In this document: piece by piece, positions 1,600 through 27,840 of the stretch
Layout of the letters: every line of letters begins with the position of its first letter
How positions within the stretch are numbered: position 1 is the stretch's first letter
Assembly: GCA_016214745.1 (NCBI GenBank)
Contig: JACRNW010000013.1
Coordinates: 1 to 33,198 of the forward strand
Origin: Candidatus Falkowiibacteriota bacterium
GTDB lineage: Bacteria > Patescibacteriota > Patescibacteriia > XYB2-FULL-38-15
Direction of reading: 5' to 3'
DNA length: 33,198 nucleotides
Translations under genes and position numbers: made by a program
The notes under the pieces: model-generated
The model's input: the letters and a program-made list of their open reading frames with translations, nothing else
Database searches by the model: none
What the model was told of the DNA's origin: nothing

Positions 1600-3222
1600 A
1601 TGGAAAAAATAATTCAAGAAATTTTGGACGAATTATTTATCATTGATCCAGGTTTGAAAAAATATCAGAAAGAACTGGAGGCCGCTATGGCTAAAATGAT
1701 TGCCAATAAACCCGAAGAAAAATTCAACGAGAGTTTTAAGGAAGAGTTAAAAATGAAATTGCTCGCACGGGCCGAGGAATTGGAAAAGGCAGGAAGGGCT
1801 CGGCCGTCGCTTTGGAGAAGTTTAAAATTTTGGCGGGGGATGGCCTTCGCCGCTGCCACAATCGTTTTGGCCGTAATTTTAGTCGTGCCGGCAGTACAAA
1901 ACGGCTGGATTGGCATGCCGGAATTTGGAGCAGGAAATCCTTTGGCAAATTTTTCCGGAGGAATTAAAGTTCAAGAAGCGGGCGTTCGGGCTTTTGGCGA
2001 TCTTGGAGCAACAAGTGCGCCGTTGACCGAAGAAGATCTCGCGCGCGCCACTTCGTCTTATCTTCCGGAAGAAAATGCCGCTCCGGCTGCGCCGCTCGGC
2101 TCCACACCGCAAACAATGTCCTCAACTTCTCGCGATGCGGCTTTGGGTCGCGAAGTTTTGGGACTGGGCGGAGGCGGGGGAACGAATGCGTCCGCGCCGG
2201 ATATAAAAATGATGCCGCCGCAATACGCGACAAAATATAGTTATGTTTACGTCGGCGAAGATTTTTCTTTGCCCGAAGTAAGTGAGGTCGCGGTGTTGAA
2301 GCGTGTCAAAAATTATGGCAGTGAAAAATTAAATTCAATTTTAGACAAAATCAGCTTTGGACTTTTTGACGCCAGCAAATTGAGTAATGTTAAAGTCCAA
2401 ACCCTCTCGCTCGTCGAAGACCGGGACGGGGGGTATATTGTTGATTTCAATCCTTATGAAGGAATAGTTTCAATATATGAAAATTGGCAAAGAATTACGC
2501 CGATAAATTATGAAGCCTTGCCGCGCCTCAGCCAATCGGATGTGCCGTCTGACGAAAAATTAATTGAGACGGCAAATGGATTTCTCTCTCGCTACGGAAT
2601 TGACCGGGGAAATTATGGCACGCCAAAAATAAGCCAAAGTTGGAAATTGGGCTATGCCGGAGTCCGGGCCGAAGACATTTGGATTCCAGACACCATGACA
2701 GTTTTGTATCCCTTACTTGTAAATGGAAAAGAAGTTTGGGAGCAGGGCGGCTACAGTCAGGCCGGATTTTCCGTGAATGTTAATATCAGAACCATGAAAG
2801 TCACGAGCCTTTATGGACTGCAAACGCAAAATTATCAAAGTTCAAATTACGCCATGGAAACCAATAAAGAACGGGTGATGAAGTTTGCTTTGCAAGGCGA
2901 TCTTTGGTCGCAGGGAGATTTTCCGGTTGAAAGTTTTCAGGTGAAAGAAGCAGAAGTGAAACTCGGCACGCCGGAAATTCAGTATATGAGATATTGGAAA
3001 TATGACGGCAATCAGAGCATTGAGCTTCTTGTTCCGGCCTTGGTGTTTCCGGTTTTGGAAACAACTCCGGCCGACGGGTCGTTCTACAAATCCGCGGTGG
3101 TGATCCCTCTCGCGAAAGAAATTTTGGATGCCGCCGAGGCGAACAACACGGTTACTCCGCCCACGATTTTGAAAAGCGAACCGACGATAGAACCGGCGCC
3201 GGCGGTAAGGGAGACGCAATAA
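1600..3222 (+). CDS. Membrane-anchored anti-sigma-like protein (540 aa)
   Basis: Residues 1-75 form a charged, helical cytoplasmic part. A membrane segment follows at 81-100 (GMAFAAATIVLAVILVVPAV), and the remaining roughly 440 residues are predicted extracytoplasmic. This topology, and its position directly after an ECF sigma gene, suggest that it holds the sigma factor at the membrane and senses an extracellular signal. I see no zinc-binding HxxxCxxC motif of ZAS-type anti-sigma factors, so the assignment rests on context. Residues about 150-210 are low complexity (Ala/Pro/Gly). The C-terminal part is Tyr/Trp rich with no domain I can name and ends in a Pro/Thr/Glu-rich tail. The ATG lies exactly in the right-hand TATG flank of the inverted-repeat element. 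Confidence 0.75.
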   Translation: MEKIIQEILDELFIIDPGLKKYQKELEAAMAKMIANKPEEKFNESFKEELKMKLLARAEELEKAGRARPSLWRSLKFWRGMAFAAATIVLAVILVVPAVQNGWIGMPEFGAGNPLANFSGGIKVQEAGVRAFGDLGATSAPLTEEDLARATSSYLPEENAAPAAPLGSTPQTMSSTSRDAALGREVLGLGGGGGTNASAPDIKMMPPQYATKYSYVYVGEDFSLPEVSEVAVLKRVKNYGSEKLNSILDKISFGLFDASKLSNVKVQTLSLVEDRDGGYIVDFNPYEGIVSIYENWQRITPINYEALPRLSQSDVPSDEKLIETANGFLSRYGIDRGNYGTPKISQSWKLGYAGVRAEDIWIPDTMTVLYPLLVNGKEVWEQGGYSQAGFSVNVNIRTMKVTSLYGLQTQNYQSSNYAMETNKERVMKFALQGDLWSQGDFPVESFQVKEAEVKLGTPEIQYMRYWKYDGNQSIELLVPALVFPVLETTPADGSFYKSAVVIPLAKEILDAAEANNTVTPPTILKSEPTIEPAPAVRETQ

Positions 3223-13959: not shown

Positions 13960-14580
13960 ATGAATAAAATTTTAATCGTTCTCGTCGTAGTTTTACTTTT
14001 AGCTGCTGGCGGAATTTTCGTTTGGCAGAATTTTTCCGGCCAAACGAATGCTCCGGCAACAAATGAGCCAGTGGCTTGTACAATGGAAGCCAAAATTTGT
14101 CCGGACGGAAGTTCTGTCGGGCGAACCGGGCCGAAGTGCGAATTTAGTCCGTGTCCCTTGCCGTCCGATTGGAAAACTTCAAACGAAGGCGGAGTAGAAT
14201 TTAAATATCCCGAAACTTTGACGACAAAATATATTGACACTCAAGAATGGCCGCCGAAAGTGACAGTGGCGACGGGAGAATTTACTTGCGCGGAAACTCC
14301 GTTGACGAGCAGTTTGCCGGAGCGAGTGACGCGGCGGACGGTGGACAGCCGAGTTTATTGCATGGAAGAAATAATTGGCGCGGCCGCCGGTTCCACTTAC
14401 ATTGAGTACACTTACACCACCGCGCGAGACGGAAAACTTATCGCTATAAAATTTACTCTGCGCTATCCGCAATGTTTGAATTATGATAATCCAAAACAGA
14501 GCGAGTGCCTGGCGGAGCGGGAAACGTTCGATATGGATGGCGTGGTGGACCGGATTGCGGCGACGGTGGAATTGAAGTAA
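13960..14580 (+). CDS. Single-TM secreted protein with Cys-rich and PsbP-like parts (206 aa)
   Basis: The membrane anchor spans residues 3-24. Residues about 38-68 hold a small Cys motif (ACTMEAKICPDGSSVGRTG followed by CEFSPCP) that resembles a Kazal-like or metal-independent disulfide fold often seen in CPR secreted proteins. The remainder (70-206) starts DWKTSNEGGVEFKYPE, a PsbP-like beginning, and contains Cys residues likely to form disulfides. The role is unknown. The stop codon lies inside the first unit of a heptanucleotide repeat, and a terminator follows. Confidence 0.6.
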   Translation: MNKILIVLVVVLLLAAGGIFVWQNFSGQTNAPATNEPVACTMEAKICPDGSSVGRTGPKCEFSPCPLPSDWKTSNEGGVEFKYPETLTTKYIDTQEWPPKVTVATGEFTCAETPLTSSLPERVTRRTVDSRVYCMEEIIGAAAGSTYIEYTYTTARDGKLIAIKFTLRYPQCLNYDNPKQSECLAERETFDMDGVVDRIAATVELK

Positions 14581-14610
14581 CGAGTAACGAGTAATTGGTA
14601 ATTGGAGATT
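14576..14610 (+). repeat. Five tandem heptanucleotides
   Basis: AGTAACG, AGTAACG, AGTAATT, GGTAATT and GGAGATT follow one another without gaps, with a conserved NGTAANN pattern in the first four. The first unit includes the upstream stop codon. It belongs with the other degenerate 7-mer arrays at 20221, 24121, 28845, 29254, 30348, 30419 and 30839. Confidence 0.7.
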
Positions 14611-14611
14611 T

Positions 14612-14639
14612 AAAAAGCGACCCGACGGTTGCTTTTTTT
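14612..14639 (+). terminator. Intrinsic terminator
   Basis: AAAAAGC-ACC pairs with GGT-GCTTTTT around a short CGAC loop, ending in seven T residues. It closes the 13310-14580 pair. Confidence 0.8.
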
Positions 14640-14679
14640 GTTTAATAAATTTTTTGTGGTAAAATTATGTAACATCACT

Positions 14680-14751
14680 CCCTCGCCCCTTTGGGGAGAG
14701 GGTTGGCCTGCCCGCAACGCCAGCGCTAGCGTGGCAGGCGGGGGTGAGGGG
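14680..14751. repeat. Nested GC-rich palindromic repeat
   Basis: The first hairpin is CCCTCGCCCC-TTT-GGGGAGAGGG (14680-14702, one mismatch). The second has GCCTGCC (14706-14712) and GGCAGGC (14733-14739) around an inner CGCTAGCG palindrome. GGGGGTGAGGGG closes the block. CCCTC...GAGGG repeats of this kind recur in many bacterial genomes. The GC content is far above the surrounding AT-rich sequence. Confidence 0.65.
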
Positions 14752-14784
14752 AAGAATTAATTTTTAAATTCAGAAAAATCTATG

Positions 14785-15065
14785 CCCCGTTAGAAGCCTA
14801 TGTGGTATGTTTATCTTCTTAAAAGCAAGAAAACAGAAAGATGGTACACAGGTTCTACTTGTGATTTGAGAAAAAGAATTTTAAGCCATAATACAAATAA
14901 AAATAAGGCAACTAAATTTGGGGCACCATGGAAACTAATTTATTGTGAAATTTCTTTAAATAAACAAGACGCCCGTGCACGAGAAAGATATCTTAAGTCC
15001 GGTGTGGGAAAACGTTATCTCAATAACCGCTTAAAATTCTTTTTTGCCAAGGGCTTCTAACGGGG
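14785..15065 (+). mobile_element. GIY-YIG inverted-repeat element, copy 2 (281 bp), flanked by TATG
   Basis: Perfect 14-bp terminal inverted repeats CCCCGTTAGAAGCC (14785-14798) and GGCTTCTAACGGGG (15052-15065) enclose one gene, a GIY-YIG nuclease. Its start codon follows the left repeat by one base and its stop codon lies inside the right repeat. TATG occurs directly outside both ends (14781-14784 and 15066-15069), as expected for a 4-bp target-site duplication. Three shorter copies with the same ends lie at 1474, 27529 and 27724. I regard this as the likely autonomous member. Confidence 0.75.
14800..15060 (+). CDS. GIY-YIG single-domain endonuclease (86 aa)
   Basis: The protein is a minimal URI/UPF0213-type GIY-YIG domain. 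The signature appears as Tyr3-Val-Tyr5 and Tyr16-Thr-Gly18 (WYVYLL, WYTGST), with Arg24, His30 and metal-binding Glu62 (ARERYLKSGVGKRYL). The length equals a bare catalytic domain with no DNA-binding extension. The gene fills the space between terminal inverted repeats almost exactly, with the stop codon TAA forming part of the TTCTAACGGGG repeat. This tight fit suggests the nuclease acts on, or is carried by, the flanking repeats, in the way RAYT transposases accompany REP sequences. That role is inference. Confidence 0.92.
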   Translation: MWYVYLLKSKKTERWYTGSTCDLRKRILSHNTNKNKATKFGAPWKLIYCEISLNKQDARARERYLKSGVGKRYLNNRLKFFFAKGF

Positions 15066-15144
15066 TATGTTTAACCTTTTTAAGGGAGGGAAGAAAGGTC
15101 GGCTCTTTAACAATCCCGCCAGAGGCGGGGAAGGAGAAAAGAAG

Positions 15145-15789
15145 ATGAAGAAGGGAATCGTTTTTGTAGCGGTGATCGTTGGCGCGTTGGTTTTGGTCGG
15201 TTGGGGTTGCGGACAAAGATCCGCGGCGCCCGCTGATTCAAACTCGGACACAAACGAGGTGTCCGAGACTTCCTCAGACAACACGCCAGAAGTCACGTCC
15301 GACACGACCGGCGAAGTTCCGGCCGGCTGGACAGAGTACAGGAACGAGCGACTCGGGTTTTCGTTCCAGTATCCGGAAACTTGGAACTTGCGAGTGGTTG
15401 AAAGTTCCCCGTTCGATTGGAGCGGAAACCACTATGAGTTAGACGAGGTGCAATTGAAAGAAGTCGGCCGTGATGACTATATCGGCGCTTACTCTTTTGC
15501 GATCGTCGCTAATCCGTCGCATCTTTCAGCCCGAGAATGGCTGACGGACAACAATCGAGTAGGTGAAGCATTGGAACTCAGCGACGTAGCAGTCAACAGC
15601 ACGTTGGCGGGCGTTAGGATTAGCGAATCGACTCAAGAAATTAGCTCGCCAGACGATAGAGCGTTTCCTGGCACTCTTGCCTTTAGTAACCCGGGGAAAA
15701 ATTACGTTTTTTCCCGGACCTTGGACAGGAGCACAACATCTTCACGGACTATGGGACAACACCAGACGCGTTTGAAAACCAGATACTGA
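15145..15789 (+). CDS. Lipoprotein with PsbP-like domain, frameshifted near the C-terminus
   Basis: A lipoprotein signal ends at the Cys of LVGWGCGQ, followed by a Ser/Asp/Thr linker and a domain beginning YRNERLGFSFQYPETWNLR, a PsbP-like start. The ATG at 15145 has AAGGAG eight bases upstream; the frame is open to an ATG at 15067, next to the GIY-YIG element, which would bury the signal peptide. After about 15705 the translation becomes Ser/Thr/Arg-rich. Adding one T to the six-T run at 15706-15711 restores a natural end containing EHNIFTDYGTTPDAFENQ and TMTFER, stopping at 15812. That is 7 bases before the next start. A one-base deletion, real or a sequencing error, is the simplest explanation. 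Confidence 0.7.
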   Translation: MKKGIVFVAVIVGALVLVGWGCGQRSAAPADSNSDTNEVSETSSDNTPEVTSDTTGEVPAGWTEYRNERLGFSFQYPETWNLRVVESSPFDWSGNHYELDEVQLKEVGRDDYIGAYSFAIVANPSHLSAREWLTDNNRVGEALELSDVAVNSTLAGVRISESTQEISSPDDRAFPGTLAFSNPGKNYVFSRTLDRSTTSSRTMGQHQTRLKTRY

Positions 15790-26792: not shown

Positions 26793-27667
26793 ATGAAAAA
26801 ATATTTTTTATTATTTTCATAATAATAACCACAGCTAGCGGCATACATATTGTTTTTGCTCAGGACAGTTTCAGTGTCCTCGATAATTACAGTAATGGAG
26901 AAATCAATAGCCAAGACGGGTGGTCAAATAAATGGAATTCTTTATTAGTACAAGATAAAGTGAAATTTCAAGGAACAAAAGCAATAAAAAATCAGGCAGA
27001 ATTTGGTGGCATAGATTATAAAGAATTGAAAAAAGAATTTTTAGAAAATGGAGTTGTAAGCACAGAAATACAGATAGACGATAATGACTTTTCCGATAAT
27101 CAAGATTTGTTTGGAATTTATAAAGGCATTGGCGAAGAATATGTGGCCCTTTTCAGGTTTGGCAATAATTTTGACAATCGCTCAAATATGCTTTTACTTT
27201 CAAAGGCCAATTCCACCGATGTCGCGGAAATAGGGCAAATAACACAAGGAGAATGGCATAAAATCTCTCTTGGCTGGAGAAAGAGCGATTTTAAGATTCG
27301 GGTTAAAATTGACGATAATAACTGGTCTGAATGGTTTGACAGCCAAACCAGTTGGGATAATGAGCCTTTTGGAATTAGAATTTCTGCGCCTTCGGCCAAT
27401 GACTATGGCGATTTTTATTTTGCCGATATTAAATCAACTGTAGGCGATGACTTTATTCCACCAATTATTGATATTATTGACAGTGGAGCGACGCCACTCG
27501 CGCCACTGCCGGATTCTACGCCAGTTGACCCCGTTAAAAACATAATTTCTAACGGGGTGGATTCAACTTCAACGCCCGAGGCGGATTCGACAAGCTCACC
27601 GCAAGCAACACCCGCGCCGGTTATTCAGCAAACTGAAGACGGATCAACAACGATAATAGCTATATGA
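26793..27667 (+). pseudogene. LamG-like secreted protein with start-proximal frameshift
   Basis: From the ATG at 26793 translation stops after nine codons. Adding one A to the six-A run at 26796-26801 gives a perfect signal peptide (MKKIFFIIFIIITTASG...IVFA) that continues without a break into the long frame ending at 27667. The mature part (QDSFSVLDNYSNGEINSQDGW, then VALFRFGNNF, GEWHKISLGWRKSDFKIRV and DYGDFYFADIK) resembles a concanavalin/LamG sandwich. A Pro/Thr/Ser-rich tail follows. A GTG at 26960 is the first possible start in the present frame but would lack the signal. The shift may be real, phase variable or a sequencing error. Confidence 0.75.
27529..27557. mobile_element. Inverted-repeat element, copy 4 (29 bp), inside a coding region
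   Basis: CCCCGTTA...TAACGGGG with a short centre lies within the disordered tail of the LamG-like protein. The flanks TTGA (27525-27528) and TGGA (27558-27561) match at three of four positions. Element plus duplication is 33 bp. Removing it joins GTT-GAT-TCA (Val-Asp-Ser) in frame. It adds 11 residues (about PVKNIISNGVD) without breaking the frame. Confidence 0.65.
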
Positions 27668-27671
27668 TATA

Positions 27672-27755
27672 ATGGGCAAATTTTCAAATAAAAATTTTTT
27701 GACAATTTTTATTGCCCTGCTTACCCCGTTAGAAATCGCGAACGCTAGTGATTAA
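27672..27755 (+). pseudogene. Detached original signal-peptide start of the second WxL-like gene (27 codons)
   Basis: The frame MGKFSNKNFLTIFIALLTP... reads like the start of a signal peptide but enters the inverted-repeat element and stops. Deleting the element and one 4-bp flank joins IALL directly to ITGIFFVDTTYAG of the downstream gene, giving a complete signal peptide in frame. This is therefore the original gene start, cut off by the insertion. Confidence 0.7.
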
Positions 27756-27840
27756 TATTTTGCGCACTGTTTTCGGTGTAATATATACTTATATGCCATT
27801 CAAAAACCATTTTATTGTTCGCGTTCTATTTCTAACGGGG
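27724..27840. mobile_element. Inverted-repeat element, copy 3 (117 bp), at a gene start
   Basis: Ends CCCCGTTAGAAAT (27724-27736) and ATTTCTAACGGGG (27828-27840) are inverted repeats, with CGCGAAC/GTTCGCG as an offset inner pair. Flanks are CTTA (27720-27723) and TTTA (27841-27844), one mismatch. The element contains a promoter-like TTGCGC-N18-TATACT and the ATG at 27793 that now starts the downstream gene. Confidence 0.7.

Follow-up and report, generated by a model that had tools for sequence, protein, structure and literature searches.

A GIY-YIG gene enclosed by inverted repeats

The window, by which we mean the whole 33,198-nucleotide stretch of DNA analysed here (contig JACRNW010000013.1 of a Candidatus Falkowiibacteriota bacterium), contains a 281-bp element at positions 14785–15065, with perfect 14-bp inverted ends, one gene and a direct TATG/TATG flank, as a preliminary description of this DNA had claimed. 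Ends of this type read CCCCGTTAGAAG. The same description held that the only content is an 86-aa GIY-YIG nuclease, and indeed the element has no other gene, and the stop codon (TAA) of this ORF falls within the right repeat. It also listed three further copies without the nuclease, at 1474, 27529 and 27724, all of which are present. The features are as follows:

14781–14784, no strand: TATG, left copy of the 4-bp target duplication; contains the downstream gene's ancestral start codon and is present once in the empty site of the related genome G001
14785–14798, + strand: left terminal inverted repeat, CCCCGTTAGAAGCC
14800–15060, + strand: GIY-YIG nuclease gene, 86 aa, sole gene of the element
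15052–15065, − strand: right terminal inverted repeat, reading GGCTTCTAACGGGG on the + strand
15066–15069, no strand: TATG, right copy of the target duplication; ORF 15067–15789 starts at its ATG
15067–15789, + strand: host gene, 240 aa, no confident family; its start codon is the insertion point
1474–1598, no strand: 125-bp gene-less (MITE-like) copy, TATG/TATG at 1470–1473 and 1599–1602; at the start codon of ORF 1600–3222
27529–27557, no strand: 29-bp palindromic copy within ORF 26960–27667, flanks TTGA/TGGA (3/4 match)
27724–27840, no strand: 117-bp gene-less copy, flanks CTTA/TTTA (3/4 match)

The 86-aa protein matches the Pfam GIY-YIG family (E 1.7e-15), as do all 27 of its homologues that were tested. 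The catalytic-type residues Y5, G18, R26, H30 and E62 are invariant in the 27 sequences compared, and the protein has the conserved Tyr/Gly, Arg and Glu that mark a GIY-YIG catalytic domain. It consists of the bare domain and a basic C-terminal helix (AlphaFold model, mean pLDDT 89); in structure comparison, the nearest solved folds were UPF0213, SLX1 and I-TevI. A search of positions 14500–15400 against Rfam revealed no RNA family and no intron match.

End-like sites are in excess in the window (8; shuffled sequence gave 1.8 on average and at most 7). The 0.92-Mb genome to which the window belongs contains 30 exact CCCCGTTAGAA ends, 14 forward and 16 reverse, against none for the reversed control, and nearly all of them form convergent pairs 29–281 bp long. 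A GIY-YIG gene is enclosed by two of these pairs, one being the element in the window; at the other, C10:74999 (flanks CATA/CATA), the copy is frame-shifted. Many gene-less copies of 125–140 bp share a (T/C)CCTTGGC motif followed by a AAAAATTTT hairpin, adjoining one end. The GIY-YIG gene has the same motif as its 3′ end (…GCCAAGGGCTTCTAACGGGG), and these gene-less copies therefore look like internal-deletion derivatives of the GIY-YIG element.

Three positions within the ends differ between elements, yet agree between the two ends of one element. Agreement was found in 36/48 comparisons in the genus of the window (26.2 when shuffled, p 0.0008) and in 72/100 outside it (44.7 when shuffled, maximum 63). 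Such covariation fits a requirement for pairing of the two ends.

Two of the window copies have neighbours worth recording. The copy at 27529–27557 adds 33 bp (29+4) and keeps the reading frame of its ORF. An ECF sigma factor gene (892–1458) stops 15 bp ahead of the copy at 1474, which separates it from the 540-aa gene at 1600.

Target duplications

We compared the flanks of element pairs with shuffled controls in which, for the window's genome, right flanks were permuted among elements. The identical copies C8:798 and C17:42678 share flanks through segmental duplication, and one of them was excluded. Perfect 4-bp direct flanks were found in 10 of the 14 pairs, compared with a mean of 2.4 and no more than 9 in 50,000 shuffles; they were TATG/TATG, CATA/CATA, TTGA/TTGA, TCAA/TCAA and TTTA/TTTA. 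Because the flanks match directly, and not as inverted repeats, they are target duplications rather than extensions of the ends. Elsewhere in the class, 49 pairs (gene-less or other) drawn from 18 genomes included 22 with perfect flanks (2.6 shuffled, maximum 10), and in none of these 22 did the match reach a fifth base. GIY-YIG loci with defined ends gave 19/53 (2.2 permuted, maximum 9), so that each of the three separate sets showed duplication far above its controls. Target sequences follow a YNNR-like pattern: TATG/CATA, TAAA/TTTA, TTGA/TCAA, TGAA/TTCA and TGGA/TCCA.

Roughly one in two flank pairs falls short of a perfect duplication, the recurrent TTCA/TAAA and TTCA/CAAG among them. Another type of flank, TTCA..CARG or the complement of this, lacks a direct repeat and occurs also at the GIY-YIG loci L063 and L121; it may involve a different insertion route or an asymmetric end.

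For the main type, we rejected the possibility that the flanks merely belong to a longer palindrome: 22 perfect matches were direct and 1 was inverted. In genome G167 (L164–L170), many 28-bp CCCCGTTAGAAATAAATTTCTAACGGGG palindromes lie in a common GCGGATTAA..TAGACGCGGAT context; as these palindromes share flanks with one another, the repeated unit exceeds the palindrome, and they were not counted as independent insertions.

Empty sites in a related species

G001 is a genome of a different species of the same genus. At the ortholog of the window element it reads GGAAAAATCTATGCTTAACCTTTTTAAGGG, with a single TATG, where the occupied site reads AGAAAAATCTATG, the element and TATGTTTAACCTTTTTAAGGG. 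Clean empty sites were also found in G001 for three MITE-like copies, at C13:72261 (one TATG), C15:21788 (one CATA) and C15:53770, the last with TAGA in the empty site and TACA/TAAA at the occupied one. At four sites, then, G001 restores the ancestral sequence with one copy of the target, which upholds the earlier argument that the duplicated target sites imply real insertion. For C13:78014 no exact empty site was present in G001. The copy at C15:14622 is common to both species at the same ortholog and is thus an older insertion.

Insertion at start codons and tRNA genes

In the genus, each of the eight insertions with a TATG or CATA target lies at the start codon of an ORF; for seven of them the ORF is 60 aa or longer (p 0.002; base rate in the window, 32%). 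Likewise, the TATG GIY-YIG loci lie at a start codon in six of six cases (p 0.0003 against 26%). Elements ending in TCCCG/CGGGA supply the final A, which together with a TGNN duplication rebuilds the ATG of the host gene; host genes rebuilt in this way, as identified by eye from their N-termini, encode PyrG (L050), MurG (L056), TopA (L078) and SMC (L091).

At L050, L051, L055, L056, L061, L068 and L094 the GIY-YIG ORF shares its reading frame with the left copy of the host ATG, and translation of the nuclease could therefore begin at the start site of the host gene. The stop codon of the nuclease, TGA, overlaps the rebuilt host ATG as ATGA in six of these seven loci and in L078. An ATGA overlap is a classic arrangement for translational coupling. 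To judge from the sequence alone, this organization suggests hijacked translation initiation plus translational coupling. The start-codon bias may reflect either targeting or selection.

Seven pairs enclose a complete tRNA gene and each lies inside another tRNA gene (L189, L190, L193, L194, L197, L217 and L219). Two of these nested elements are:

L217, 1501–1606: nested tRNA element, G000 C9:34081
L219, 1501–1602: nested tRNA element, G000 C10:20187

The enclosed genes are those for Leu-CAG, Gly-CCC, Val-TAC, Val-CAC and Ala-CGC, and two end families are represented. The host site is the anticodon or the D loop, mostly of the same isotype as the enclosed tRNA. Most tRNA-enclosing CCCCGTTAGAA pairs are flanked by TTCA..CARG and not by a duplication, one having CATG on the right, and two tRNA-enclosing CCCCCACACCAA pairs have closely similar flanks.

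Association of gene and ends across genomes

Using an alignment of four GIY-YIG proteins of the window's genome as query, we scanned GTDB genomes and found 80 related loci in Patescibacteria, Omnitrophota, Planctomycetota, Verrucomicrobiota, Elusimicrobiota, Acidobacteriota, Bacteroidota and others. An inverted repeat scoring at least 12 brackets the ORF in 51 of 78 testable loci, compared with 2 of 312 control windows from the same contigs. The ends fall into the classes GTTAGAA, GTTAGAG, GTACGAA, GTAGGAAA, GTGAAAT and GTAGTAG. End class tracks protein clade (Mantel r 0.57; permuted maximum 0.43, above all 5000 permutations), and nearest neighbours share an end class in 35/47 cases, against 11.6 when shuffled. 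This congruence shows that gene and ends travel as a unit. As the two are physically linked, it is on its own no proof of recognition and could reflect simple linkage.

A search by ends only, without use of the protein, looked for CCCCGTTAGAA...TTCTAACGGGG pairs 265–295 bp long in 381 genomes of the class. It returned seven elements in 5 of the 381 genomes (control 0). Six of these elements code for a GIY-YIG protein, and the remaining one resembles two gene-less copies side by side. At least one CCCCGTTAGAA was present in 52 of 192 genomes. Seven genomes with a close GIY-YIG relative (E ≤ 1e-22) carry 8–137 ends and the rest mostly none (Mann–Whitney p 8e-9). The expectation that repeat-bearing genomes encode this GIY-YIG clade was thus met in the main, but not one-to-one: 45 of 185 surveyed genomes without a close relative have at least one CCCCGTTAGAA, and we infer that such repeats persist or are served by more distant enzymes. 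In G036, G054 and G167 the close relative has GTTAGAG-type ends, not GTTAGAA.

The genome of the window has at least three end families, each with its own GIY-YIG copy. The second, CCCCCACACCAA, has 21 sites (control 0; L036, L038, L208–L228), including two GIY-YIG genes of its own at tRNA genes with apparent 4-bp duplications CGCG and CCTG, and also comprises 28-bp palindromes with TTTA/TTTA flanks. The third end type, at L035, is CCCCCCACTTATTAAGCCT. A first scan of viral contigs, made with a single protein, gave no match, and phage and plasmid collections yielded no relative of the GIY-YIG protein.

Discussion

We conclude that these elements are a real transposon-like family with a GIY-YIG gene as its only gene: the ends are defined, target sites are duplicated over 4 bp, empty sites exist, insertion has occurred several times, and GIY-YIG is the sole gene in many phyla. 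The family has the marks by which DNA transposons with terminal inverted repeats are recognised, that is, the repeats themselves, a fixed 4-bp YNNR-like duplication (though not at every copy) and orthologous empty sites, four in this case. We consider it probable that the element is a minimal autonomous DNA transposon whose GIY-YIG protein is the transposition nuclease, a role that is inferred, with no biochemical or in vivo evidence. The preliminary description had proposed an autonomous element with MITE-like derivatives; ends, duplications and empty sites support this, whereas transposition driven by GIY-YIG remains an inference and the TTCA..CARG flanks lack the duplication.

The proposed unit is 265–310 bp long and consists solely of a GIY-YIG nuclease gene between short terminal inverted repeats (NCCCGTTAGAR...). 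Paired ends, in fold-back or cruciform form, are probably what the nuclease recognises, and it would cut at their outer edge. SLX1 cuts branched DNA, and the likeness to its fold would suit recognition of a folded-back or cruciform end. The same enzyme would also cut a YNNR-like target with a 4-nt stagger, after which host polymerase and ligase would fill and seal the joints, leaving the duplication of 4 bp. Copies that have the same ends but no gene, from palindromes of 28–29 bp to about 130 bp (125–140 bp for many), would be moved in trans. The cutting of ends and target by GIY-YIG, the fold-back intermediate and the host-mediated joining are all inferred; hydrolysis of DNA is the known activity of GIY-YIG enzymes, which are not known to join it.

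The strongest rival is that the elements are MITEs of an unseen trans-acting transposase, for instance of the DDE type, with GIY-YIG a frequent cargo and not the driver. Terminal repeats with a duplication of fixed length are typical of DDE transposases, whose insertion sequences and MITEs likewise comprise autonomous and gene-less copies; the lack of any joining activity known to us in GIY-YIG enzymes, and the genomes that have repeats but no close GIY-YIG gene, point the same way. However, the elements described here have only an 80–95-aa GIY-YIG gene in an autonomous form of about 280 bp. This is the sole gene found within the ends in many phyla and with several end sequences, including the ends-only set, and the different end families of one genome each have their own copy. 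No pair among those listed is spaced widely enough for a DDE gene, and between the ends, though not in the rest of the genomes, we looked for a DDE transposase gene and found GIY-YIG only. With the search limited in this way, a DDE driver acting in trans is not excluded, but we regard it as unlikely. Least credible of all is the idea of static regulatory or terminator palindromes, or of chance. Palindromes are common in AT-rich intergenic DNA, but the direct flank matches, the zero matches to control patterns and the same element at unrelated genes all speak against it, and the empty sites refute it.

Nor do known nuclease systems account well for the elements. GIY-YIG is a classic homing-endonuclease fold, shared with I-TevI and I-BmoI, the former among our structural matches, and many insertions are at conserved start codons, so that the nuclease might cut an uninterrupted allele and host repair copy the element in. 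Such allelic homing would not be transposition, and we think it improbable: it creates neither target duplications nor dispersed copies at unrelated sites, whereas the same ends occur here at many unrelated genes with differing 4-bp duplications. The protein has no DNA-binding extension and there is no intron or intein, a self-splicing one being expected at one conserved site. According to the main text of a report on GIY-YIG-encoding 'ISs' in CPR rRNA genes, those inserts are not group I or II introns and were placed outside homing because their insertion sites are poorly conserved (PMC11270868). We found no mention there of inverted repeats or target duplications for them; they are probably the same elements as ours, an identity that we presume. 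A Y1 HUH transposase moving palindromes as single strands, as in REP/RAYT or IS200/IS605-like systems, is more doubtful still. In its favour, short palindromes, a location near start codons and tRNA genes, and TTCA..CARG flanks without a duplication are reminiscent of such elements, and the window's genome has two Y1 transposases; yet true, variable 4-bp duplications occur with the same ends, and the gene within them is GIY-YIG. No Y1/HUH transposase was matched in 5 of 13 repeat-bearing genomes (G034, G100, G137, G001 and G296), and a Y1/RAYT driver was rejected because the most repeat-rich of them, the complete genome G034 with 137 ends, has none. RAYT with REP, proposed earlier as the closest analogy, therefore holds only as an analogy, in that a tiny nuclease moves or maintains short (about 28 bp) palindromes in trans. 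Rickettsia palindromic elements are alike in being short palindromes in frame within coding genes, as is the copy at 27529, but differ in sequence and are not known to have a GIY-YIG partner.

DNA transposons are classed by the chemistry of their enzymes (DDE, HUH, tyrosine or serine), and we know of no class with a GIY-YIG-type enzyme as its sole gene. Literature searches on GIY-YIG with transposons or inverted repeats found no description of such elements, and a search with the end sequence returned unrelated matches only. We are evenly divided on the further claim of a new class of DNA transposon, in which an 80–95-aa GIY-YIG nuclease alone excises or copies the element, makes 4-nt staggered cuts in the target and prefers host start codons and tRNA genes, where the insertion restores function, either because the start codon is rebuilt or because a replacement tRNA gene comes with the element. 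If the GIY-YIG-only reading is true, the family would add a transposon class, and its members, at about 280 bp, would rank among the smallest transposons that are autonomous. It would then also account for the abundance of small genes annotated as 'GIY-YIG nuclease family' in Patescibacteria and other uncultured bacteria, and for the GIY-YIG inserts in CPR rRNA genes, which lack an explanation. As the elements insert exactly at start codons and leave them intact, a very compact insertion tool that does little damage might be derived from them.

Two further features of the insertions were noted. TTGA/TCAA duplications often start a TTGACA-like sequence (L005, which is C8:798; L007, which is C9:58113; L182, L187 and L199), possibly a −35 promoter box restored by the duplication. 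In addition, GGGGCGTGCCCC junctions, in which CGTG separates two back-to-back ends, were seen repeatedly in genomes that are unrelated (L070, L089, L100 and L124); they are possibly tandem insertions or a circle-junction form.
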